A stretch of DNA of 64,000 nucleotides from a virus: positions 62,001-126,000 of IMG/VR virus record IMGVR_UViG_3300025436_000002. One strand, given 5' to 3'. The translations under genes were made by a program, and so were the position numbers. Under the pieces are notes generated by a model. That model did not search any database and had not been told where the DNA came from. It saw nothing but the letters and a program-made list of their open reading frames with translations. Of the stretch, positions 27,409-59,841 are shown piece after piece; within the stretch, counting starts at the first letter, position 1, and every line of letters starts with the position of its first letter.

Positions 27409-27648
27409 ATGAAAAATATACTAGTCACATTCTGTGAGAATGATTTTATATATTCTGTATATCTACAAGATGGGACAGGTATCCCACTTACAGACTACTG
27501 CCATAGGATACTATCACATATAGCCAGCCAAGGAGTTGAAACTATATTTAATACTCTAACTGAATTACTACAAAGATATCCTGATGCTGAGATAATAGAT
27601 CCAATAGAAGTTTCTAAAATTCTAATGACCGAAGAATTATTAAAATAG
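27409..27648 (+). CDS. ELLK-tail family protein, first copy of the array
   Basis: 79 aa, TAGGAG upstream. It introduces the family that fills the next 36 kb. The head is an N-terminal strand (ILVTF), a second strand pair (FIYSVYLQDG) and a middle helix. The tail is EVSKILMTEELLK, an amphipathic helix. It is followed by a terminator, not another gene, and its Glu codons are GAA, so no ribosome site is formed, yet the ELLK residues persist. Function unknown. Confidence 0.85.
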   Translation: MKNILVTFCENDFIYSVYLQDGTGIPLTDYCHRILSHIASQGVETIFNTLTELLQRYPDAEIIDPIEVSKILMTEELLK

Positions 27649-27711
27649 ATTGTAAAGTTTCATTTCAATAACCTTACTGAGAGTCTTGACGACTCTCTTT
27701 TTTTATGCTAT
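27632..27711 (+). repeat. 80-bp perfect repeat, copy 1
   Basis: Identical to 58307-58386. It spans the last codons of an ELLK-tail gene, the intergenic stretch, the terminator hairpin and part of the -10 box. Confidence 0.9.
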
Positions 27712-27714
27712 TCT
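27679..27714 (+). promoter_or_regulatory. Intrinsic terminator whose loop is the -35 box
   Basis: Stem GAGAGTC/GACTCTC, loop exactly TTGAC, then seven T residues. TTGACG (27686-27691), 17-bp spacer, TATTCT (27709-27714) with TGn. Confidence 0.85.
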
Positions 27715-27746
27715 ATTCGTGTAAGGTTAGATAAAAGGAAATGTTT

Positions 27747-29254: not shown

Positions 29255-29959
29255 ATGAATGATAATATCATAGAGTTGTTTAGAGACATCAAAGGTTATG
29301 AAGGAAGATACTTGGTCTCGAATCTAGGTAATGTCAAAAGTCTAAACTATGCACGTACTGGGAGAGAGCAACTACTAAAGTTAAGGTTAGATGGTAAGGG
29401 TTATCCCTTTGTGACGTTACCTACAAAAAATCAACAGAGAGTGCACAGGCTTGTTGCTATCGCATTCATCCCTAATGATGAGGATAAACCTTACATAAAT
29501 CACATAGATGGTAATACATCCAATAACTCTATTGAGAATATTGAATGGTGTACTCCCGAAGAGAACATGAGACATAGATCTGATACTCTAGGATATAAAC
29601 ATTCTCAGGAAACGAGGGATAAGATAGGGTTAAAAGCTAAAGGTAGGACTATACATATAAATACCAAGAGATCTAGGCATAGACCAGTTAGGTGTATTGA
29701 GACAGGCATTGTCTATAGCTCACAAGTTGAAGCGGAATCTAAAACTGGCGTACTCGACAAATATATTTCAAATTGTTGTGCGGGTAGAGTAAAGACAGCA
29801 GGACATTTACATTGGGAGTTTGTTTTAGAATGTAGGGAATTTCAGAGTATTGTAGAATCTAGTTCAGTGTGTCAAGAGAAGATTGATGGGGTATTTAAAG
29901 AGAGTGGTAAAGGTACTGGTATCAGTGTATTAGTAACTAAGTTTGTTAAGGGATTATAA
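29255..29959 (+). CDS. HNH homing endonuclease (NUMOD4-type)
   Basis: 234 aa, AGGAG upstream. NUMOD4 block (FRDIKGYEGRYLVSNLGNVK), HNH core (INHIDGNTSNNSIENIEWCT) and C-terminal NUMOD1-like DNA-binding segments (RPVRCIETGIVYSS, NCCAGRVKTAGHLHWEF). It is a mobile intron-less homing gene inserted among ELLK-tail genes. Confidence 0.88.
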   Translation: MNDNIIELFRDIKGYEGRYLVSNLGNVKSLNYARTGREQLLKLRLDGKGYPFVTLPTKNQQRVHRLVAIAFIPNDEDKPYINHIDGNTSNNSIENIEWCTPEENMRHRSDTLGYKHSQETRDKIGLKAKGRTIHINTKRSRHRPVRCIETGIVYSSQVEAESKTGVLDKYISNCCAGRVKTAGHLHWEFVLECREFQSIVESSSVCQEKIDGVFKESGKGTGISVLVTKFVKGL

Positions 29960-30844: not shown

Positions 30845-30861
30845 GGGGGGGGGAAAATAAA

Positions 30862-31047
30862 GTGGCTAAACCTATAACTACAACCTCAGAAAAGATTCAA
30901 GCCTATAGACTCAAGTATGGATGTGGAATCATGGATGCAAAGGAAGCAGTACTCTCACAAGAAAGAGAAGATAGGATACTCAGCTTAGAAGCTAGAATAG
31001 AAAAACTCGAGAGATTAGTTAGGAAGTTAGTTAGGGATAGTAAATGA
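30862..31047 (+). CDS. UBA/TS-N-like domain microprotein
   Basis: 61 aa, GTG start. Residues 10-30 (IQAYRLKYGCGIMDAKEAV) match the N-terminal UBA-like domain of elongation factor Ts (lRe.TGaGmmDcKkAL), the part that binds EF-Tu. The rest is a short coiled coil ending in basic residues. It may contact host EF-Tu; inference from one motif. Confidence 0.55.
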   Translation: MAKPITTTSEKIQAYRLKYGCGIMDAKEAVLSQEREDRILSLEARIEKLERLVRKLVRDSK

Positions 31048-33294: not shown

Positions 33295-33668
33295 AATATC
33301 TCGGAATTAAATACGCAACTATCAACATAGAGACTAGCCATCCAGAAATTGAACTGGTAGCTATCGAGGTATTACCTTATAGTCTACTAGCATGGAGCGG
33401 TAGTTTTGGTGATGAGGATGTTAGCCTTCTGTATTGGATGAGACGGGTACTTCCATCTGGAGTTATAATGAACGAGATCAATCTGAAATACTATCGAGAA
33501 GTAATATGCTACTACACTCCATCAGAACATGTATGGGATAGTGGACGATGTCGTGCTGAATGTACTTCACTCCAGATACTCCTAGATTGTATTCCAGAGA
33601 GTCATAAACTTATTACAGATCCTAAAGAAATAAATAAGATACTAATGACACAGGAGTTATTAAAATAA
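33291..33668 (+). CDS. ELLK-tail family protein, CEIVAI subgroup
   Basis: 125 aa. EIELVAIEVLPYS, LLYWMRRVLPSGVI and LITDPKEINKILMTQELLK align with the gene at 32636 over nearly the full length, proving whole-gene homology rather than a shared tail only. Confidence 0.86.
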   Translation: MKYLGIKYATINIETSHPEIELVAIEVLPYSLLAWSGSFGDEDVSLLYWMRRVLPSGVIMNEINLKYYREVICYYTPSEHVWDSGRCRAECTSLQILLDCIPESHKLITDPKEINKILMTQELLK

Positions 33669-36073: not shown

Positions 36074-36387
36074 ATAAAGATTTTACATTGGAGATATTAG
36101 TAATATTAGACACCTTGCCCTCCGTTGCGTTTTATAGTTCGCAAGGTAAGTATTATATAAGTACCTGCCCATGGCAATTCACTGAGGAGATATTATTTAA
36201 AGATAGGTTTAAACATGTATTAGTTAAGACTTCACATAGCCGTGAAGAAGCTATCAAGAGATTTGAAGATTATACAGATAGGGAAGTACTGACTGATAGG
36301 GAAGCTATACGGAGGGCAATGGGGGAATATCATCAAAAAATAAAGGACTTGCACCCTAGGATAGCTACTGGTAAAATGTTAAAGTAA
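36070..36387 (+). CDS. ELLK-tail-like protein with altered tail
   Basis: 105 aa from the ATG inside the previous stop (ATGA). Head FTLEILVILDTLP and strand AFYSSQGKYYIST are family-like. VLTDREAIRRAMGEYHQ starts like the tail but is extended and ends GKMLK. Confidence 0.6.
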   Translation: MNKDFTLEILVILDTLPSVAFYSSQGKYYISTCPWQFTEEILFKDRFKHVLVKTSHSREEAIKRFEDYTDREVLTDREAIRRAMGEYHQKIKDLHPRIATGKMLK

Positions 36388-36402
36388 TGTAACGAACTTA
36401 GA

Positions 36403-36440
36403 AAGGTAGGCTTGTAACTGAGTCTACCTTATGCTATACT
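36403..36440 (+). promoter_or_regulatory. Hairpin with embedded promoter
   Basis: 10-bp stem (36403-36412 with 36421-36430, one G-T pair), -35 TTGTAA (36412-36417), 17-bp spacer, TATACT (36435-36440) with TGn. Leader GTAAGGTTGATTAAAGGAG follows. Confidence 0.75.
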
Positions 36441-36473
36441 AACTATGTAAGGTTGATTAAAGGAGACTGTATT

Positions 36474-37333: not shown

Positions 37334-37421
37334 AAGAAGAAGTACGACTGTAAAGATTATAGGTGGCAGGCATGAGTAAAAAAATATGTAGCGTTAACCC
37401 TAGACAAGGGCAAAATAAAGT
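37334..37421 (+). repeat. Duplicated segment, copy 1
   Basis: Closely matches 40571-40658. It covers the last codons of a 57-aa gene (KKKYDCKDYRWQA) and the start of an ELLK-tail gene. Only the 3' end of the upstream gene is present here. Confidence 0.7.
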
Positions 37422-37606
37422 ACAAATACTTTATGGTAGGCAATGAATTACACATAGAGTTTTATAATGGAACTACTAACTACGCATCTGAGCAGAGTCT
37501 TGAGGAGAATTTTAAGTATGATAAAAGTACTTTAACTGACCCTTTTTTAGTGGAAGGAGTTCAAGAAGCTAATAAGTTCTTAATGGCGGGGGAGTTATTG
37601 AAATGA
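37372..37606 (+). pseudogene. ELLK-tail gene with frameshift in an A7 run
   Basis: ATG AGT AAA AAA then loses frame. With six instead of seven A residues it would read MSKKYVALTLDKGKIKYK through to AGELLK and TGA at 37604. An internal ATG could still give a shorter product. It is the full-length relative of the 27-aa gene at 40609. Confidence 0.7.
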
Positions 37607-37933: not shown

Positions 37934-38194
37934 ATGACAAACCGAGAAGATGCAAAATTCATATTCGTTAGTATTATAGCAGAAGACTGTGTATATATTA
38001 GTGACGAAGCATTAGAAGACGGGCAAGATGAGGTTAAAAAGAGTCCGTCATTTAGTTGGTTTCCAACGGAGGACGAACGAAAACAACACTTAAATCATAT
38101 AAGCCTATACCATAGGAACATACATGAACTTCCAATACTGGATAGATTTGGAAAGACCCTCGACTTTAAAACAGTTGGAGAATACTTAGCATAA
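37934..38194 (+). CDS. Probable ELLK-tail relative lacking the last tail residues
   Basis: 86 aa. Head AKFIFVSIIAEDCVYIS looks family-like and the protein ends TVGEYLA, at the point where others continue YLM..ELLK. It may be a truncated member. A hairpin promoter follows. Confidence 0.55.
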   Translation: MTNREDAKFIFVSIIAEDCVYISDEALEDGQDEVKKSPSFSWFPTEDERKQHLNHISLYHRNIHELPILDRFGKTLDFKTVGEYLA

Positions 38195-38210
38195 CATAAT
38201 GTAACGAACC

Positions 38211-38252
38211 ATGCCCGAAGAGATTGACCTATCTTCGGGCATGTGCTATTAT
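38211..38252 (+). promoter_or_regulatory. Hairpin with embedded promoter
   Basis: 11-bp perfect stem ATGCCCGAAGA/TCTTCGGGCAT, loop holds TTGACC (38224-38229), 17-bp spacer, TATTAT (38247-38252) with TGn. Confidence 0.78.
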
Positions 38253-38284
38253 AATATGGTAAGATTGATTGAAAGGAGTGTTAC

Positions 38285-38430
38285 ATGATTAGACCCAAGT
38301 TAACTTATATAACATCTGTCCTCAATCTTACTACCATGTTTCAACTTTACGTATGGATAAGTGTAGAACAGTATCAACCAAGACTAGTATTATCAGTAAA
38401 TATTTAATGACTTTGGAGTTATTAAAATGA
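38285..38430 (+). pseudogene. Broken ELLK-tail gene
   Basis: An ATG after AAAGGAG opens 40 codons (MIRPKLTYITSVLNL) and stops at 38405-38407. In another frame the region ends KYLMTLELLK with TGA at 38428-38430. The head and tail are out of frame and the middle is shortened. Confidence 0.65.
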
Positions 38431-38711
38431 AACCAAAACTATATCCTACACAAAAGATAGAAAATGATGAAGGTATAGAATACATAGCTCTCTCGTACTC
38501 AGGTTCAAGAATATTATACGGGTACTCCTATAATAAGGATGGAAAGCTTGTAGCTCATGATATTAGTAGTAACGGAGTTCACACCTTTATGCCCAGCGGA
38601 AAACTAGATACCGAGCTACAACGAGATAGAATCTTATTTACAAATGTTAAAACTACTAAGTCTAAGAAGAAGATAAAAAAGTTACTAATGATTCGGGAGC
38701 TACTAAGATGA
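38427..38711 (+). CDS. ELLK-tail family protein
   Basis: 94 aa. Translation starts in the ATGA supplied by the broken copy upstream, whose tail DNA keeps the ribosome site. Head YIALSYSGSRILYGYSYNKDG; tail KIKKLLMIRELLR. Confidence 0.82.
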   Translation: MKPKLYPTQKIENDEGIEYIALSYSGSRILYGYSYNKDGKLVAHDISSNGVHTFMPSGKLDTELQRDRILFTNVKTTKSKKKIKKLLMIRELLR

Positions 38712-38965
38712 TAATAATAAAAGATGAGGAGATAATATTAGCTGTAATAAAGCCCATGGACAAGACAGAAGAGCCTTATATATTCTTATACTTCTGGGAT
38801 GGTGGCAGACTTTGTTATTGGGATAACAAAGGGAGGTGGAATCGAAGTTGCCACTCTGAGCTTGATGAGTTGTATGAAGACCTTTCATCATTGAAGATCT
38901 ATGAAATAACAACGGATGAATCTGTAATAAAGAAATATATCATGGCTATGGAGTTACTAAAATGA
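38708..38965 (+). CDS. ELLK-tail family protein, EEII subgroup
   Basis: 85 aa. MIIIKDEEIILAVIKP and FLYFWDGGRLCYWD closely match the gene at 40790, marking a duplicated pair. Tail VIKKYIMAMELLK. Confidence 0.84.
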   Translation: MIIIKDEEIILAVIKPMDKTEEPYIFLYFWDGGRLCYWDNKGRWNRSCHSELDELYEDLSSLKIYEITTDESVIKKYIMAMELLK

Positions 38966-39252
38966 ATCCTAATGATCCTATACTAGATTTTAGTCATATA
39001 GAGCTTACTTTGATCTGCTGGGTAGCTATAAAGAATCAAAGTATGGAGCCTCTATATTTCTATGTGGATAAGGACACGGATTTATACTTCTATAACCCAT
39101 GGTATTACACTAAGTTAAGTTTAAATATTTCCCTAGACTTAGCTTATCCGCATGAGTTAAAAGATTATCTGGATGATGGTAACTATATATGGAAATCCGA
39201 TCAGTTAGGGATTGCCAAAAAGTATAGTGTACTACAGGAGTTAATGAAATGA
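38962..39252 (+). CDS. ELLK-tail family protein
   Basis: 96 aa. Head LICWVAIKNQSMEPLYFYVD; tail IAKKYSVLQELMK has Ser-Val where Leu-Met is usual. Confidence 0.78.
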   Translation: MNPNDPILDFSHIELTLICWVAIKNQSMEPLYFYVDKDTDLYFYNPWYYTKLSLNISLDLAYPHELKDYLDDGNYIWKSDQLGIAKKYSVLQELMK

Positions 39253-39483
39253 CTAGAGAATACATAGCTCTATCCACAAGAGAAGAAGACGGAAAGTATT
39301 GGTTATACTGGATGAAAGGATCTAAATTAATGTTCTCGGATAGGTGTGACGGTGGAGCACAGTTCAGCCAACTACTAGATTTAAAACAGAATCTTAATAG
39401 TGATAAGGTTAGTGCTATATACTTCGACTAAAGATCCAAAAAAGATAGCAAAGTTTTTAATGATAAGAGAGTTATTAAAATGA
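39249..39483 (+). pseudogene. ELLK-tail gene with frameshift before the tail
   Basis: MTREYIALSTREEDGKYW starts normally but meets TAA at 39429-39431. One frame over, TSTKDPKKIAKFLMIREL continues to TGA at 39481-39483. Comparison with 42811 (STTKDPKEIAK) places the indel near 39415. The reading frame may be restorable by one change. Confidence 0.7.
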
Positions 39484-39725
39484 ATAAGGAATACGTAGTC
39501 ATAACTTTGAAAAAGAATGGGGATGTAAAATATAGATATTATTATATATCTGGAGAATTGTATTATGATTCCTATGGTAACTATGGTAACTATAACGTTC
39601 TCGGATCTCTTGCTCCGATAAATGATCTTGCAGCAAATCTCGATGATGATACATGCTGGGGTCATGAGACCTTGGTGGGTAATGAGGCTATAAAGTATCT
39701 AATGGTACAAGAGTTAAAAAAATAA
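39480..39725 (+). CDS. ELLK-tail family protein
   Basis: 81 aa. Head EYVVITLKKNGDVKYRYYYI, tyrosine-rich; tail EAIKYLMVQELKK ends LKK. Followed by the CCCTAGGG repeat and an HslV-like gene. Confidence 0.82.
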   Translation: MNKEYVVITLKKNGDVKYRYYYISGELYYDSYGNYGNYNVLGSLAPINDLAANLDDDTCWGHETLVGNEAIKYLMVQELKK

Positions 39726-39797: not shown

Positions 39798-40346
39798 ATG
39801 ACATGTATCGTGGGAATCAAAACAACTGACAATGTTTACATAGGCGGAGATACATTTGGATCAAATGGACATACTGGAGAAAGCTACCTAAGACCTAAGG
39901 TATTTAAAAAAGGTAACATGATTATAGGAGTCTGTGGTAGTTATAGATTAATGCAAATACTGGAGTTCTGTTTAGAGCTACCTAAGAAATACGAAGGCAT
40001 CAGCACAGAGAAGTATTTATATATAGATTTCATTAATGCTGTAAGAACTACTTTAAAAGCAAACGGACTCCTTGCTGTTGATAAGGGTGTTGAATCCATG
40101 GATGGAGGAATATTCTTGATGGGATATGAAGGAGAGTTATACAAAGTACAGCAAGATTTATCAATACTCATGCCTGCTTCTGGATACGCTTCTGTAGGCT
40201 CTGGATGTGACCATGCTAAGGCTAGTCTATTCTCTACGGAGGGACTACTATTGGATCCTAAAGAGAGGATAGTTAAAGCAATAGAATGTGCCAACAACTT
40301 TGTAGTAAGTGTTAACGGTGAGAATAATATAATAAGTTTAATTTAA
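39798..40346 (+). CDS. HslV/proteasome-like Ntn-hydrolase, copy 2
   Basis: 182 aa, AAAGGAG upstream. After Met removal Thr1, Asp17 (YIGGDTFGS) and Lys33 (RPKVFKK) fall exactly at HslV numbering. IGVCGSYRLMQIL, GYEGELYKVQ and SVGSGCDHAKASL parallel copy 1 at 22744, but the lysine-rich insertion is missing. It lies inside the ELLK-tail array. Likely a threonine peptidase; oligomer and substrates unknown. Confidence 0.85.
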   Translation: MTCIVGIKTTDNVYIGGDTFGSNGHTGESYLRPKVFKKGNMIIGVCGSYRLMQILEFCLELPKKYEGISTEKYLYIDFINAVRTTLKANGLLAVDKGVESMDGGIFLMGYEGELYKVQQDLSILMPASGYASVGSGCDHAKASLFSTEGLLLDPKERIVKAIECANNFVVSVNGENNIISLI

Positions 40347-40366
40347 AGTAATGTAACAAAGATATT

Positions 40367-40404
40367 AAGACAGACTTGAAATATAGTCTGTCTTATGTTA
40401 TTCT
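40367..40404 (+). promoter_or_regulatory. Hairpin with embedded promoter
   Basis: 10-bp perfect stem AAGACAGACT/AGTCTGTCTT, -35 TTGAAA (40376-40381), 17-bp spacer, TATTCT (40399-40404) with TGn. Confidence 0.75.
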
Positions 40405-40438
40405 AAGTAAGTAAGGTTAATTACTAAGGAGTTACATC

Positions 40439-40612
40439 ATGAGTTTTGAAATAAGTATTGAACCTAGGTGTGGAGTCTATGGAGTCGCTCATGTATTTGA
40501 TAAGACTCGTAACTTAGAGAGAGCTATCGAAAGTTGTGTCCTTAACAATAGAAATGAACTTACAACTATAAAGAAGAAGTACAACTGTAAAGATCATAAG
40601 TGGCAGGCATGA
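40439..40612 (+). CDS. 57-aa protein of unknown function
   Basis: AAGGAG upstream. It ends TIKKKYNCKDHKWQA and its stop overlaps the mini ELLK gene (ATGA). The 3' end was copied to 37334. Confidence 0.55.
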   Translation: MSFEISIEPRCGVYGVAHVFDKTRNLERAIESCVLNNRNELTTIKKKYNCKDHKWQA

Positions 40613-40658
40613 ATAAAGAGTATATAGCACTAACCTTAGACAAGGGCAAAGTAAGGTA
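40571..40658 (+). repeat. Duplicated segment, copy 2
   Basis: Partner of 37334-37421. After this point the two loci differ by the internal deletion in the mini gene. Confidence 0.7.
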
Positions 40659-40692
40659 CAAATTCTTAATGTCTCAGGAGTTATTAAAATGA
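40609..40692 (+). CDS. 27-aa deletion derivative of an ELLK-tail gene
   Basis: MNKEYIALTLDKGKVRYK is joined directly to FLMSQELLK. Compared with the locus at 37372 about 150 bp of middle sequence is gone but the frame and tail are kept. It may be a relic that survives for its ribosome site, or a working short form. Confidence 0.6.
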   Translation: MNKEYIALTLDKGKVRYKFLMSQELLK

Positions 40693-40793
40693 TATCATAC
40701 GTTAATCCTTATACACCTATTGATGAAGATACTGAATACAAAGGTATATCCTATTCTGGAACAAAGATACCTAAGAGTAGGTATTCTGTATGA
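40689..40793 (+). CDS. 34-aa protein of unknown function
   Basis: Starts in the ATGA of the mini gene and ends in the ATGA of the next. ISYVNPYTPIDEDTEYKG; no motif. Coupling on both sides supports translation. Confidence 0.45.
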   Translation: MISYVNPYTPIDEDTEYKGISYSGTKIPKSRYSV

Positions 40794-41020
40794 TTATAAA
40801 AGGGGAAGAGATAATAGCTGCACTCATCAACCCTGAGAGTACAACATGGGCATTCTTATACTTCTGGTCTCATGATAAGTTGTGTTATTGGGATAGTACT
40901 ATGTCATTTAATACTAGCCGATTCAGGACTCTCGAGGGGTTATCTATGGATAACCCTCACTATACATCAGACATGCAAAAGATTAGTAAGTTTTTAATGA
41001 CAAAGGAGTTATTAAAGTGA
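40790..41020 (+). CDS. ELLK-tail family protein, EEII subgroup
   Basis: 76 aa. MIIKGEEIIAALINPES and AFLYFWSHDKLCYWD pair it with 38708. Tail KISKFLMTKELLK. The next gene uses GTG in GTGA. Confidence 0.84.
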   Translation: MIIKGEEIIAALINPESTTWAFLYFWSHDKLCYWDSTMSFNTSRFRTLEGLSMDNPHYTSDMQKISKFLMTKELLK

Positions 41021-41319
41021 ATAAAACATATGTAGCCATCTTAGATAAATCATATTATGATTGTATTTATGTATTCTATTTCTATTCTAAGAAAGAAGTA
41101 TTAGTACCTTCAGGCGTTCTTATGTATGATTCATATAATAGACATACTAATAGATGTATTGATGGGAATATTTGGAGAGGGTTAGTATTAAAGTTAACTA
41201 GAGAAGCGTGGCTAAGGCAACTAAAACATGACTACAATGCTGACGACAGTACTCTTACTGATATTGACACACAGAATGATGTAGATAAATTTCTTATGGT
41301 AATAGAGTTACTAAAGTAA
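41017..41319 (+). CDS. ELLK-tail family protein
   Basis: 100 aa, GTG start. Head TYVAILDKSYYDCIYVFYFY; tail DVDKFLMVIELLK. Ends TAA before a weak promoter. Confidence 0.82.
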   Translation: MNKTYVAILDKSYYDCIYVFYFYSKKEVLVPSGVLMYDSYNRHTNRCIDGNIWRGLVLKLTREAWLRQLKHDYNADDSTLTDIDTQNDVDKFLMVIELLK

Positions 41320-41343
41320 TGTAACAAACATGCCTGCAAAGGA

Positions 41344-41372
41344 TTGAACTCTCTTCTGACATGTGCTAGTAT
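41344..41372 (+). promoter_or_regulatory. Promoter with decayed hairpin
   Basis: TTGAAC (41344-41349), 17-bp spacer, TAGTAT (41367-41372) with TGn. The flanks resemble those of 38211 but the stem is largely mismatched. Confidence 0.55.
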
Positions 41373-41406
41373 AATTATATAAGATTGAATGTAAGGAGAT
41401 ATTGAA

Positions 41407-42051: not shown

Positions 42052-42090
42052 AAGATAAGGGTTGACCTATCTTTGGGCGTGTGTTAGTAT
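42052..42090 (+). promoter_or_regulatory. Hairpin with embedded promoter
   Basis: Short stem AAGATA/TATCTT, loop with TTGACC (42062-42067), 17-bp spacer, TAGTAT (42085-42090). Confidence 0.6.
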
Positions 42091-42122
42091 AATTATAGAT
42101 TAGATATAAGAAAGAGGTTGCA

Positions 42123-44831: not shown

Positions 44832-45071
44832 ATGAAATGTAAAATTATCGCAATAGTTTTGATTAAGGAAAGTCGTAGAGTTACTAGACTATATTTTATG
44901 GATGAAAATTCCACACTATGCTATGTACATCCATGGCTACCAACTCGATTTATAAGTGCATGTAGGGATTTAAAATCATTATCTAAGATCTTTCATAGTC
45001 CAGACACGGAGTTAATTATAGATAAAAATAAAATTAACAAGTATATTATGGCACAGGGGTTATTGAAATGA
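44832..45071 (+). CDS. ELLK-tail family protein
   Basis: 79 aa, AAGGAG upstream. Head KIIAIVLIKESRRVTRLYFM; tail KINKYIMAQGLLK has Gly for Glu, and the DNA still reads CAGGGG as a ribosome site. Confidence 0.82.
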   Translation: MKCKIIAIVLIKESRRVTRLYFMDENSTLCYVHPWLPTRFISACRDLKSLSKIFHSPDTELIIDKNKINKYIMAQGLLK

Positions 45072-45301
45072 TGGAATATGTAGCCCTAGTTCTTATAAAT
45101 AATGTACTAGAATTAGGGTATTTTTATCAGGAAGATAGGCTTTGTTATAGTTACTTTAATGGTTGCGGTTTCTATTATATCAGTCGTCACATCACATTAG
45201 AGACGTGTCTAAAAAATAGTTCTAAATTTTTAGGGTACTCAGTAGTAACGGATATAAAATGCATGAATAAACATCTTATGGCACAGGAGTTATTGAAATG
45301 A
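45068..45301 (+). CDS. ELLK-tail family protein
   Basis: 77 aa. MMEYVALVLINNVLELGYFY is shared in its first residues with the next gene (MMEYVALEI), so the pair is recent. Tail CMNKHLMAQELLK. Confidence 0.84.
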   Translation: MMEYVALVLINNVLELGYFYQEDRLCYSYFNGCGFYYISRHITLETCLKNSSKFLGYSVVTDIKCMNKHLMAQELLK

Positions 45302-45552
45302 TGGAATATGTAGCTCTTGAGATAACTAAATATGCATGGATTAAAAATTTGATAAGTTACTATGCATTAGACGTGAGTGGAGTATTGCATTTTAAACCTG
45401 ATGACTGGAATCTCTACAGACCGAGTAATCTAACTTTAGAAGAGTTATTAGAACTACATAAACCCGAGGGTATCAGATCAGAGTATTCTTACCTAATAAC
45501 TGATAAAAAAGAGATAGCTAAATACTTAATGACGAGAGAGTTATTGAAATGA
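45298..45552 (+). CDS. ELLK-tail family protein
   Basis: 84 aa. MMEYVALEITKYAW head; tail LITDKKEIAKYLMTRELLK, near consensus. Confidence 0.86.
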   Translation: MMEYVALEITKYAWIKNLISYYALDVSGVLHFKPDDWNLYRPSNLTLEELLELHKPEGIRSEYSYLITDKKEIAKYLMTRELLK

Positions 45553-45971
45553 TGATTAGTTTTATAATAGGTTCCCTATGGCTTATATTTATATGGAAGA
45601 TTTGGACTCTGTTCCGAGATCAACCTGTTGAAGAGTCCGTTAGATTCCCTAAGGAAATTTGGAATTGGCAAGGGGGCTTTAGATCAGATTGTGGAGATAC
45701 TCCTTTCTGTATTGGATACCTAGATAAAGGTATTCTAGCTAATGGGGAGTGGAGTACTGCTGTGTTCTTTAAACTATGGTTCGAAGAAGGGACTAAAACG
45801 TATTGGGGCTCTTTCTTGCACATGGGACATCACATGATAGTTAGATCATTAACTGATGACTATAACGAAATACTCTTGGATGCTCGGAGTAAAGTGGGTT
45901 CTGATTTAAAGTTTGTTGAAGGTACCCGAGAAGTAGGTAGATTCTTAATGACACAGGAGTTACTTAGATGA
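45549..45971 (+). CDS. ELLK-tail family protein with membrane anchor
   Basis: 140 aa. Residues 3-21 (ISFIIGSLWLIFIWKIWTL) form a membrane segment not seen in other members. The following region (GDTPFCIGYLDKGI, HMGHHMIVRS) is also atypical, but the tail is standard: EVGRFLMTQELLR. This suggests that tails can be joined to foreign heads. Confidence 0.78.
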   Translation: MMISFIIGSLWLIFIWKIWTLFRDQPVEESVRFPKEIWNWQGGFRSDCGDTPFCIGYLDKGILANGEWSTAVFFKLWFEEGTKTYWGSFLHMGHHMIVRSLTDDYNEILLDARSKVGSDLKFVEGTREVGRFLMTQELLR

Positions 45972-46213
45972 ATAGAGAATATATAGCTCTAAGCTATTCA
46001 GAAGATTCTAATCCATTCTTGATTAAATATTACTGGGATGGGGATACTCTTATGTTTGAATTAGGAAGAGATGACTCTATAAAAGAAATCTGGAAATCTA
46101 GGAGTAATAAACTAGATATTGAATTGTCTAGGGATACTGTGTCAGGTTATAAAACTATATGGAATCCTACAGAAGTGGCTAAGTACTTAATGACTCTGGA
46201 GTTACTAAAATGA
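45968..46213 (+). CDS. ELLK-tail family protein
   Basis: 81 aa, one of the cleanest examples: MNREYIALSYSEDSN head, KYYWDGDTLMFE hairpin, EVAKYLMTLELLK tail. Confidence 0.86.
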   Translation: MNREYIALSYSEDSNPFLIKYYWDGDTLMFELGRDDSIKEIWKSRSNKLDIELSRDTVSGYKTIWNPTEVAKYLMTLELLK

Positions 46214-50851: not shown

Positions 50852-50903
50852 AGAAAAGAGGATACTTAATAAATATCTAATGTGCGGAGAGTTATTAAAA
50901 TGA
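50848..50903 (+). pseudogene. Remnant: start codon plus ELLK tail DNA
   Basis: The ATG reads MKKRGYLINI and stops. Out of frame the DNA still encodes ILNKYLMCGELLK and TGA, so only the tail and junction of a lost member remain. The junction still provides the start of the next gene. Confidence 0.6.
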
Positions 50904-51414: not shown

Positions 51415-51713
51415 AATTAAGGGTAACTAAGGAAGGAGTGTCTCTGGATTCTCTTACAACTGTACTAGCTATTATTATATCTAACTACAACGGTAATATA
51501 GTATATAACTTCTATTATAAGATAACAAATTTTAATACTATACGTTTAAGTCCTGATCTGGCATTCGATGTCCAGTACGTTCTCAGATCCGATTTTAAGA
51601 GTGTAGAGGATATTGTAGCTAAATTTAAGACCTCTCCTGTAAAGATTGTTACGGGAGCCGACTTAGTCGGAGAGATTAATAAATATTTAATGATACATGA
51701 GTTGATGAAATGA
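51411..51713 (+). CDS. ELLK-tail family protein
   Basis: 100 aa. Head TTVLAIIISNYNGNIVYNFY; tail EINKYLMIHELMK. Confidence 0.82.
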   Translation: MKLRVTKEGVSLDSLTTVLAIIISNYNGNIVYNFYYKITNFNTIRLSPDLAFDVQYVLRSDFKSVEDIVAKFKTSPVKIVTGADLVGEINKYLMIHELMK

Positions 51714-51958
51714 GTAGAGAATACGTAGCTATATCTATTAAGAATTACTCCGACAGGGATAGGTGCACTATAAAATATTACTGGGAGAGTTATAGCCTCT
51801 GCTACATAATCTCTGATGAATTTGGAACTGTTGAGGAGTATGCCGATACAAGTATATTAATGGAGGAATTAAATAAGGATAAGGAGTCTGGGTTTGAAGT
51901 TATATCTGGTAGGCTTGAGGTTGCAAAATACCTAATGATGCAGGAATTATTGAATTAA
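51710..51958 (+). CDS. ELLK-tail family protein
   Basis: 82 aa. MSREYVAISIKNYSD and TIKYYWESYSLCYI; tail EVAKYLMMQELLN ends in Asn and is the last copy before the fibre genes. Confidence 0.83.
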   Translation: MSREYVAISIKNYSDRDRCTIKYYWESYSLCYIISDEFGTVEEYADTSILMEELNKDKESGFEVISGRLEVAKYLMMQELLN

Positions 51959-55507: not shown

Positions 55508-55649
55508 ATGAGTTATGTAGAAGATGTCTTAGAGTTAGTAAGATTTACGGAGTTAGTTAACGATAATTCCATGGGGGGGTGGGTTGGATATTGAAATACT
55601 CTTGAAGGAATATAGGAAATATCTTATGATGAAGGAACTATTAAAATGA
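55508..55649 (+). pseudogene. Short ELLK-tail gene with frameshift in a G7 run
   Basis: MSYVEDVLELVRFTELV reads to a G7 run and stops at TGA. One frame over, LDIEILLKEYRKYLMMKE continues to TGA at 55647. One base change in the G tract restores a member of about 45 aa. Confidence 0.65.
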
Positions 55650-58085: not shown

Positions 58086-58323
58086 AGAGTACGTAATTAT
58101 CGCCAAATTTTTTGATGACGGGCCAACACTGGAGTATTTTAGATATCCAGATAATTCTAATGATATTTACTATATGTTTTCAAATTGTACTAATCTAGAA
58201 AGTAGACATCCTTATAGTGTTGATCGTATAGTATGTGATCTTAGTCAAAGGAATACTGTAATGTTGTTAACAAATAAAAAAGATATAGATAAATACCTAA
58301 TGACCAAAGAATTATTAAAATAG
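58078..58323 (+). CDS. ELLK-tail family protein
   Basis: 81 aa, ATG 58078 (upstream starts in frame are less likely). Head KEYVIIAKFFDDGPTLEYFR; tail DIDKYLMTKELLK coded with GAA, next to a terminator. Its last bases belong to the 80-bp repeat. Confidence 0.82.
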   Translation: MSKEYVIIAKFFDDGPTLEYFRYPDNSNDIYYMFSNCTNLESRHPYSVDRIVCDLSQRNTVMLLTNKKDIDKYLMTKELLK

Positions 58324-58386
58324 ATTGTAAAGTTTCATTTCAATAACCTTACTGAGAGTCTTGACGACTCTCTTTTTTTATGCTAT
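58307..58386 (+). repeat. 80-bp perfect repeat, copy 2
   Basis: Partner of 27632-27711. The two host genes differ in their heads, so the repeat joins different genes to the same tail and regulatory cassette. Confidence 0.9.
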
Positions 58387-58389
58387 CAT
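58354..58389 (+). promoter_or_regulatory. Intrinsic terminator whose loop is the -35 box
   Basis: Same hairpin as 27679 with T7 tract; TTGACG (58361-58366), 17-bp spacer, TATCAT (58384-58389). Confidence 0.83.
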
Positions 58390-58419
58390 GTTCTTGTAAG
58401 GTTAAATAAGGAGTTAGTC

Positions 58420-59507: not shown

Positions 59508-59800
59508 CTAAAAAGTATATAGGACTTATTCTAGGGAGGTACAGTAGGTGCGGAGATTTTAATTTCTATTCACCTTCCATGAAGATATACTATGTTGAAA
59601 ATAGAATTTGTTATCAAAGTGTTGTATTTGACGAGATTCCCGTCATGCCAAACCTTTATAATAAAACATTTACTATGGATACAAGTTATGCTAGAGTAGC
59701 ATTTGACTTAATTATAGCTAAAAGACATAGTTGTCTAACAGTCATTACAAACCATGCTGAGATTATAAAATATTTAATGACGGAGGAACTATTAAAGTGA
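59504..59800 (+). CDS. ELLK-tail family protein
   Basis: 98 aa. Head KKYIGLILGRYSRCGDFNFY; tail VITNHAEIIKYLMTEELLK; GTGA overlap with the tag-only ORF. Confidence 0.83.
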   Translation: MTKKYIGLILGRYSRCGDFNFYSPSMKIYYVENRICYQSVVFDEIPVMPNLYNKTFTMDTSYARVAFDLIIAKRHSCLTVITNHAEIIKYLMTEELLK

Positions 59801-59841
59801 AGATTAATAAATTCTTAATGTTAAAGGAGTTATCTAAATGA
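59797..59841 (+). CDS. 14-aa tag-only ORF of the ELLK-tail family
   Basis: GTG then KINKFLMLKELSK and TGA. It is the conserved tail with no head, coupled on both sides. Upstream GGAGG and its own AAGGAG support translation. It may be a relic or a working competitor peptide. Confidence 0.5.
   Translation: MKINKFLMLKELSK

Follow-up and report, generated by a model that had tools for sequence, protein, structure and literature searches.

The 27-residue open reading frame (ORF) at 40609-40692 is genuinely what remains of a larger phage gene after the in-frame loss of its middle part. It derives from a tail-bearing protein family without being a working member of it, and it is probably a decayed copy within a large array of paralogues in one accessory region of a tailed phage. 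The window, the whole 64,000-nucleotide stretch that was analysed, corresponds to positions 62001-126000 of a 170,200-bp phage record (G000), and the array spans about 44 kb of this record. The reading that best explains the relic, and that we consider likely, is birth-and-death decay of the array, with deletion at microhomology that resembles the tail. Taken alone, the relic is a case of ordinary gene decay. Its setting is out of the ordinary, and of the two, the array of at least 64 diverged paralogues deserves more interest.

The 27-residue ORF and its duplicated head

The ORF, on the + strand, encodes MNKEYIALTLDKGKVRYKFLMSQELLK, followed by a stop codon. The original prediction, that it joins a duplicated head straight to FLMSQELLK, was borne out by the reading of the ORF and by the alignment. 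The flanking DNA is indeed duplicated: aligned base by base, 40571-40671 (copy B) and 37334-37435 (copy A) are 85.3% identical over 102 columns (E = 1.5e-26 to 1.8e-25). Within the 44.5-kb array only one direct match is stronger, so chance does not explain it. The homology of the heads ends after about 101 bp, at ...TACAAAT(A/T)CTT(T/A)ATG, where the derivative turns into tail. This tail, YKFLMSQELLK, fits the family pattern K[YFLIH]LMxxEL(L)K, and a family profile built without both copies matches the 27-residue ORF with an E-value of 5e-5. From ATG to stop, the region of the twin at 37372 measures 235 bp and the derivative 84 bp, and the difference of 151 bp corresponds to 150 bp plus one extra A in the twin. 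The features are listed in Table 1.

Table 1 Positions of the main features in the window.
Feature	Position	Strand	Remarks
Array of tail-bearing paralogues, part in the window	27409-64000	+	Runs on to G000:C1 133,043
Duplicated segment, copy A	37334-37435	+	Last 13 codons of the truncated upstream gene and head of the twin
Twin, ATG frame	37372-37446	+	MSKKICSVNPRQGQNKVQILYGRQ, then stop; out of frame with the family protein
A7 run	37378-37384	+	One A beyond the frame of the derivative, the frameshift of the twin; same bases in record G006
Twin, +1 frame	37382-37606	+	KYVALTLDKGK...ANKFLMAGELLK, then stop; family-like body and tail
Tail-like site in the twin body	37420-37436	+	GTACAAATACTTTATGG; inferred left breakpoint; 11/17 to 37570-37586
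Tail of the twin, NKFLMAGELLK	37570-37606	+	Candidate right breakpoint
Tail ahead of 38427	38398-38430	+	Rival tail source; 28/33, against 27/33 for the twin
Broken member	39249-39483	+	Frameshift between head and tail
Upstream gene, 57 residues	40439-40612	+	ATGA overlap with the 27-residue ORF; last 13 codons survive at 37334-37375
Duplicated segment, copy B	40571-40671	+	End of the upstream gene and head of the 27-residue ORF
27-residue ORF, deletion derivative	40609-40692	+	Head (strand β1, start of β2) joined to the C-terminal tail
Tail of the 27-residue ORF	40660-40692	+	Includes AGGAG 40676-40680, which is the next ORF's Shine-Dalgarno site
Second truncated member, head only, 34 residues	40689-40793	+	Weakly like 38427-38711
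Intact family member	40790-41020	+	Paralogue of 38708-38965 (tblastn E 5e-14)
Intact family member	41017-41319	+	40977-41049 matches 39440-39514 (77%)
Second modelled member	45968-46213	+	pLDDT 92.7
Tail remnant	50853-50903	+	Relic
Representative intact member	51710-51958	+	pLDDT 93.0, pTM 0.81; tail is the last strand and helix
Tail-only ORF, 14 codons, GTG start	59797-59841	+	4-nt overlaps on both sides; more extreme derivative

The twin locus

The locus at 37372 had been expected to read YVALTLDKGK and to represent the full-length, intact state before the loss; neither expectation held. The ORF that starts at ATG 37372 is out of frame with the family protein, while YVALTLDKGK sits in the +1 frame, which is open from there to ...NKFLMAGELLK and its stop codon at 37606. 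Besides the frameshift at the A7 run, the gene ahead of the twin has been cut down to KKKYDCKDYRWQA; its 57-residue counterpart is whole at 40439-40612. The +1 frame could be entered by a restart at ATG 37433. Tested against a family profile from which both copies were excluded, it gives an E-value of 1e-12, and of 2e-6 without the tail. The body of the twin thus fits the family and full length is the ancestral state, which supports the proposed full-length ancestor that lost an in-frame middle. Since the twin is frameshifted and copy B lacks its body, the two copies have decayed differently, and neither is a clean state before or after the event.

The twin is also present in a second record, G006, which differs from G000 over 40 kb by six substitutions and one G run (99.98% identity). 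It is so close that it represents the same strain and not an independent relative. It carries the A7 bases of the twin and ends at window position 38800, before the derivative. A twin that is not broken, with the A7 run acting as a slippage or programmed-frameshift site so that part of the transcripts yields the full protein, is quite unlikely. The +1 frame is conserved after A7, its body still fits the family and the run is identical in two assembled records. However, a run of seven A is short for productive slippage, the member at 39249 is broken without such a run, and two records of one strain may share an assembly error. That an assembly or sequencing error made the short ORF or the frameshift is very improbable. 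The locus of the derivative is covered by one record only, and G006 and G000 do differ in a G run (G9 against G6). Nevertheless, an assembly collapse of the twin would not give an in-frame loss that falls on a tail-like site and is flanked by sequence diverged to 85% identity, and the A7 run is seen in two assemblies. The differences between the two records include those at 30845-30853, 30936-30949 and 33316-33329, the G run among them. Of the six substitutions over 40 kb, five are grouped into two clusters in the array region, which may reflect gene conversion.

The tail-bearing paralogue array

The motif K[YF]LMxxELLK, or a near variant of it, forms the C-terminus of at least 64 ORFs, which all lie on the + strand of G000 between 89.4 and 133.0 kb. 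One further family ORF, from 50615, falls outside the pattern and ends in ...KTIMTWELLK. The members have an N-terminal strand pattern (MNKEYVALS...), a variable β-rich body and a constant C-terminal helix. The relatedness of the bodies is recognisable, and their divergence is very high. In the tail peptide, the M and the L are invariant (64 of 64) and the E nearly so (63 of 64), and the DNA varies at synonymous positions. The start codon of the next gene is overlapped by 49 of the 64 tail ORFs, whose tails are here termed coupled.

The probable major capsid protein of the record is 36% identical to those of Rhizobium phages, and others are more distant. A blastn search of 50,697 phage records gave no match. 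A degenerate tail pattern was found only in G006 among viral contigs and in none of the genome contigs, and a search with the duplicated-head pattern returned only G006. Neither a protein search of viral contigs with a single member nor tblastn against phages produced a useful hit. In PHROGs, Pfam and PDB sequences nothing matched the family significantly, and no phage array of this kind was found described in open-licence papers. Between copies A and B lies a proteasome/HslV-like Ntn-hydrolase gene (39798-40346) with annotated relatives, of at most 41% identity, in Vibrio and other phages. The records of relatives of this neighbour (G001-G005), which was used as an anchor, are without such tails.

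Two further sets of repeats can be noted. Promoter-like repeat units stand at the starts of gene groups (36379-36465, 38192-38278, 40343-40431, 41312-41398 and 42057-42097), and several of them have the -35 element within an inverted repeat and the -10 element directly after it. Furthermore, 27622-27734 and 58297-58409 match at 94.7% over 113 bp, which comprise a tail end and the same downstream intergenic stretch.

Predicted fold of the family

AlphaFold2 models made from alignments of 23 and 38 family members gave the same small domain, with the order β-β-β-β-α-β-α. The tail forms the last strand and helix of this confidently predicted fold. The complete domain needs about 80 residues, of which the 27 residues of the derivative retain the first strand, the beginning of the second and the greater part of the last helix. 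According to the models, the derivative should not fold like its sister proteins. Fold matches of the family models are all weak. The recurrent one is a phage protein with a WGR domain (PF05406), from Agrobacterium phage Atu_ph07, which ranks first for one model (E 0.011, TM 0.56) and fifth for the other (E 0.10). Membership of the WGR family was rejected, as its profile matches no array member even at an E-value of 10; a sub-threshold match lies elsewhere in G000, at 29645-29770 (14.6 bits against a cut-off of 22).

The tail DNA as a Shine-Dalgarno site

The motif GGAG, which is the core of the Shine-Dalgarno sequence, occurs in 32 of 49 coupled tails and in 2 of 15 uncoupled ones (p=0.0007). 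The codon of the tail glutamate shows the same bias, with GAG and GAA at 38:10 in coupled tails, 7:8 in uncoupled tails and 120:181 in bodies. In coupled tails, the protein helix and the ribosome-binding site thus share the same bases. Conservation of the tail solely as a ribosome-binding site was ruled out: in the 15 uncoupled tails GGAG is mostly missing and yet the peptide is kept, which shows conservation at the protein level as well.

The derivative belongs to a chain of five ORFs that are connected by 4-nt overlaps (40439-40612, 40609-40692, 40689-40793, 40790-41020 and 41017-41319); those on either side of it are ATGA, at 40609-40612 and 40689-40692. By analogy with E. coli and Haloferax, in which termination-reinitiation at overlaps was demonstrated, frequently with an intragenic Shine-Dalgarno motif (PMC6728339), we infer translational coupling at the overlaps of the array. 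The 27-residue ORF, if it is retained at all, probably serves as a link in such coupling, and this role may be a mere by-product of the in-frame deletion. It is unlikely that the ORF instead serves a purpose of its own, as a leader peptide or coupling element that was selected to be short. Such an element would account for the 4-nt overlaps on either side and the good Shine-Dalgarno motif in the tail, and the tail-only ORF at 59797-59841 has the same property. On the other hand, the neighbouring genes at 40689-40793, 37372 and 39249 are simply broken, only a few of the more than 64 members are short, and the head retains family residues that a leader does not need.

How the body was probably lost

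Under the preferred reading, decay by deletion, the event in copy B would have joined an in-gene, tail-like sequence (YKYFM) to a real tail (KFLM), either the gene's own or one from a later gene. The deletion in copy B is deduced from a comparison of paralogues rather than of orthologues covering 40609. The peptide would no longer form a folded domain. An in-frame loss would preserve the start overlap, the AGGAG of the tail and the next start, and ribosomes could still pass down the five-ORF chain through the 27-residue ORF by means of the start/stop overlaps and the Shine-Dalgarno motif in the tail.

The short similarity around TTTATG/TTAATG, which had been suggested to mark the breakpoint, is real. 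No other 17-mer in the whole body of the twin matches the tail site of the twin as well as 37420-37436, with 11 of 17 bases identical and in phase. At a given site such a match has a chance of about 0.003, but a site as good as this is found somewhere in 36% of shuffled twin bodies, so that the microhomology argument depends on where the site lies, at the junction.

The original prediction of an in-frame loss of about 150 bp stands as to the frame but not as to the size, since a longer, tail-to-tail deletion of about 1 kb, to which the downstream gene order points, would also give the join. The derivative's tail had also been considered as a means to identify the twin as donor, and this was rejected: at least 64 paralogues share the tail and several match better. 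Over 39 nt, the tails at 59841, 59507 and 37917 are identical to that of the derivative at 30 positions, those at 70329, 46213 and 38430 at 29, and that of the twin at 28. Because the tails are so alike across paralogues, the two sizes are indistinguishable.

The longer deletion, a variant of the preferred explanation, is a real possibility that we hold to be somewhat less than even. It would have occurred in a copy of the A region, reaching from the tail-like site in the homologue of the twin as far as the tail before the homologue of 38427, and it would remove the body together with two or three whole genes and fuse two transcription units. A 150-bp deletion accounts for the join alone; one deletion of about 1 kb would account for the absence of the genes as well. 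The order downstream of copy B agrees with it: 40689 resembles 38427, a gene about 1 kb downstream of the twin, and 40790 resembles 38708, which skips 37603, 37934 and 38285. The tail of 40790 with the next head is best matched by 39440-39514, which is another skip, and the tail ahead of 38427 is closer to that of the derivative than the twin's own (Table 1). However, the match of 40689 to 38427 is weak (best tblastn match 38466-38513, E 0.024), the tails are too alike to assign, and the breakpoint-proximal TTCTTAATG fits the tail of the twin slightly better. Moreover, 40790 and 38708 (42% aa) are far more diverged than the heads (85% DNA), so that B did not necessarily arise from A by a single duplication.

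Other relics and the fate of the array

The 27-residue ORF is not the only relic in the array. The broken member at 39249-39483, the head-only ORF at 40689-40793, the tail remnant at 50853-50903 and the tail-only ORF at 59797-59841 show that decay is common here, and we take the 27-residue ORF as one step in a birth-and-death process. A perfect 20-nt inverted match (TAAGGTTAGTGCTATATACT) connects 39404-39423, in the frameshift region of 39249-39483, to 40619-40638, in the head of the 27-residue ORF. It is the only inverted match of at least 18 nt at a distance above 200 bp in the 44.5-kb array, and no 20-nt inverted match was found in 20 simulations; a templated mutation is possible. The invariant ATG of the tail also gives rise to 7-codon ORFs, MxxELLK or MxxELSK (38407-38430, 50880-50903, 55626-55649 and 59818-59841), which end on the Shine-Dalgarno motif and the next start and are a possible restart point in frameshifted members.

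A doubtful but conceivable alternative is that of a recombining cassette array with more than 60 diversified small proteins, in which the tail, the stop-start overlap and the ribosome-binding site form one reusable DNA junction. If this were true, bodies could be gained, swapped or deleted at the junction, leaving the last helix and the expression of the next gene intact, and the 27- and 14-residue ORFs would be end products, the emptied cassettes. At two places 24 kb apart, 45938-45985 and G000:C1 132296-132343 (70296-70343 on the scale of the window), genes that otherwise differ share a junction of tail, stop-start and next head with 96% identity over 48 nt. A second near-identical pair is found at 45043-45087 and 45273-45317 (93%). 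Such near-identical junctions between different genes suggest exchange at junctions. The array is a compact test system for whether a reusable coding and regulatory junction makes arrays tolerant of deletion and body exchange, and it raises the question of what use a phage has for 60 versions of one small protein.

Comparison with known systems

The loss in copy B resembles the deletions between short direct repeats that leave an in-frame pseudogene, with an imperfect repeat at both breakpoints and with head and tail kept. It differs from the usual cases in that the repeat is the family's own tail motif, which is present in dozens of copies, making the donors interchangeable. The array also resembles unidirectional overlapping gene pairs that are translationally coupled by termination-reinitiation (PMC6728339, PMC10666635), in its ATGA, GTGA and TAATG overlaps and in having a Shine-Dalgarno motif inside the upstream gene, at its end. 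Unlike in those pairs, the motif of the array is written into the conserved C-terminal helix of at least 64 paralogues. One stretch of DNA would thereby complete a fold and serve the next gene, through a putative coupling.
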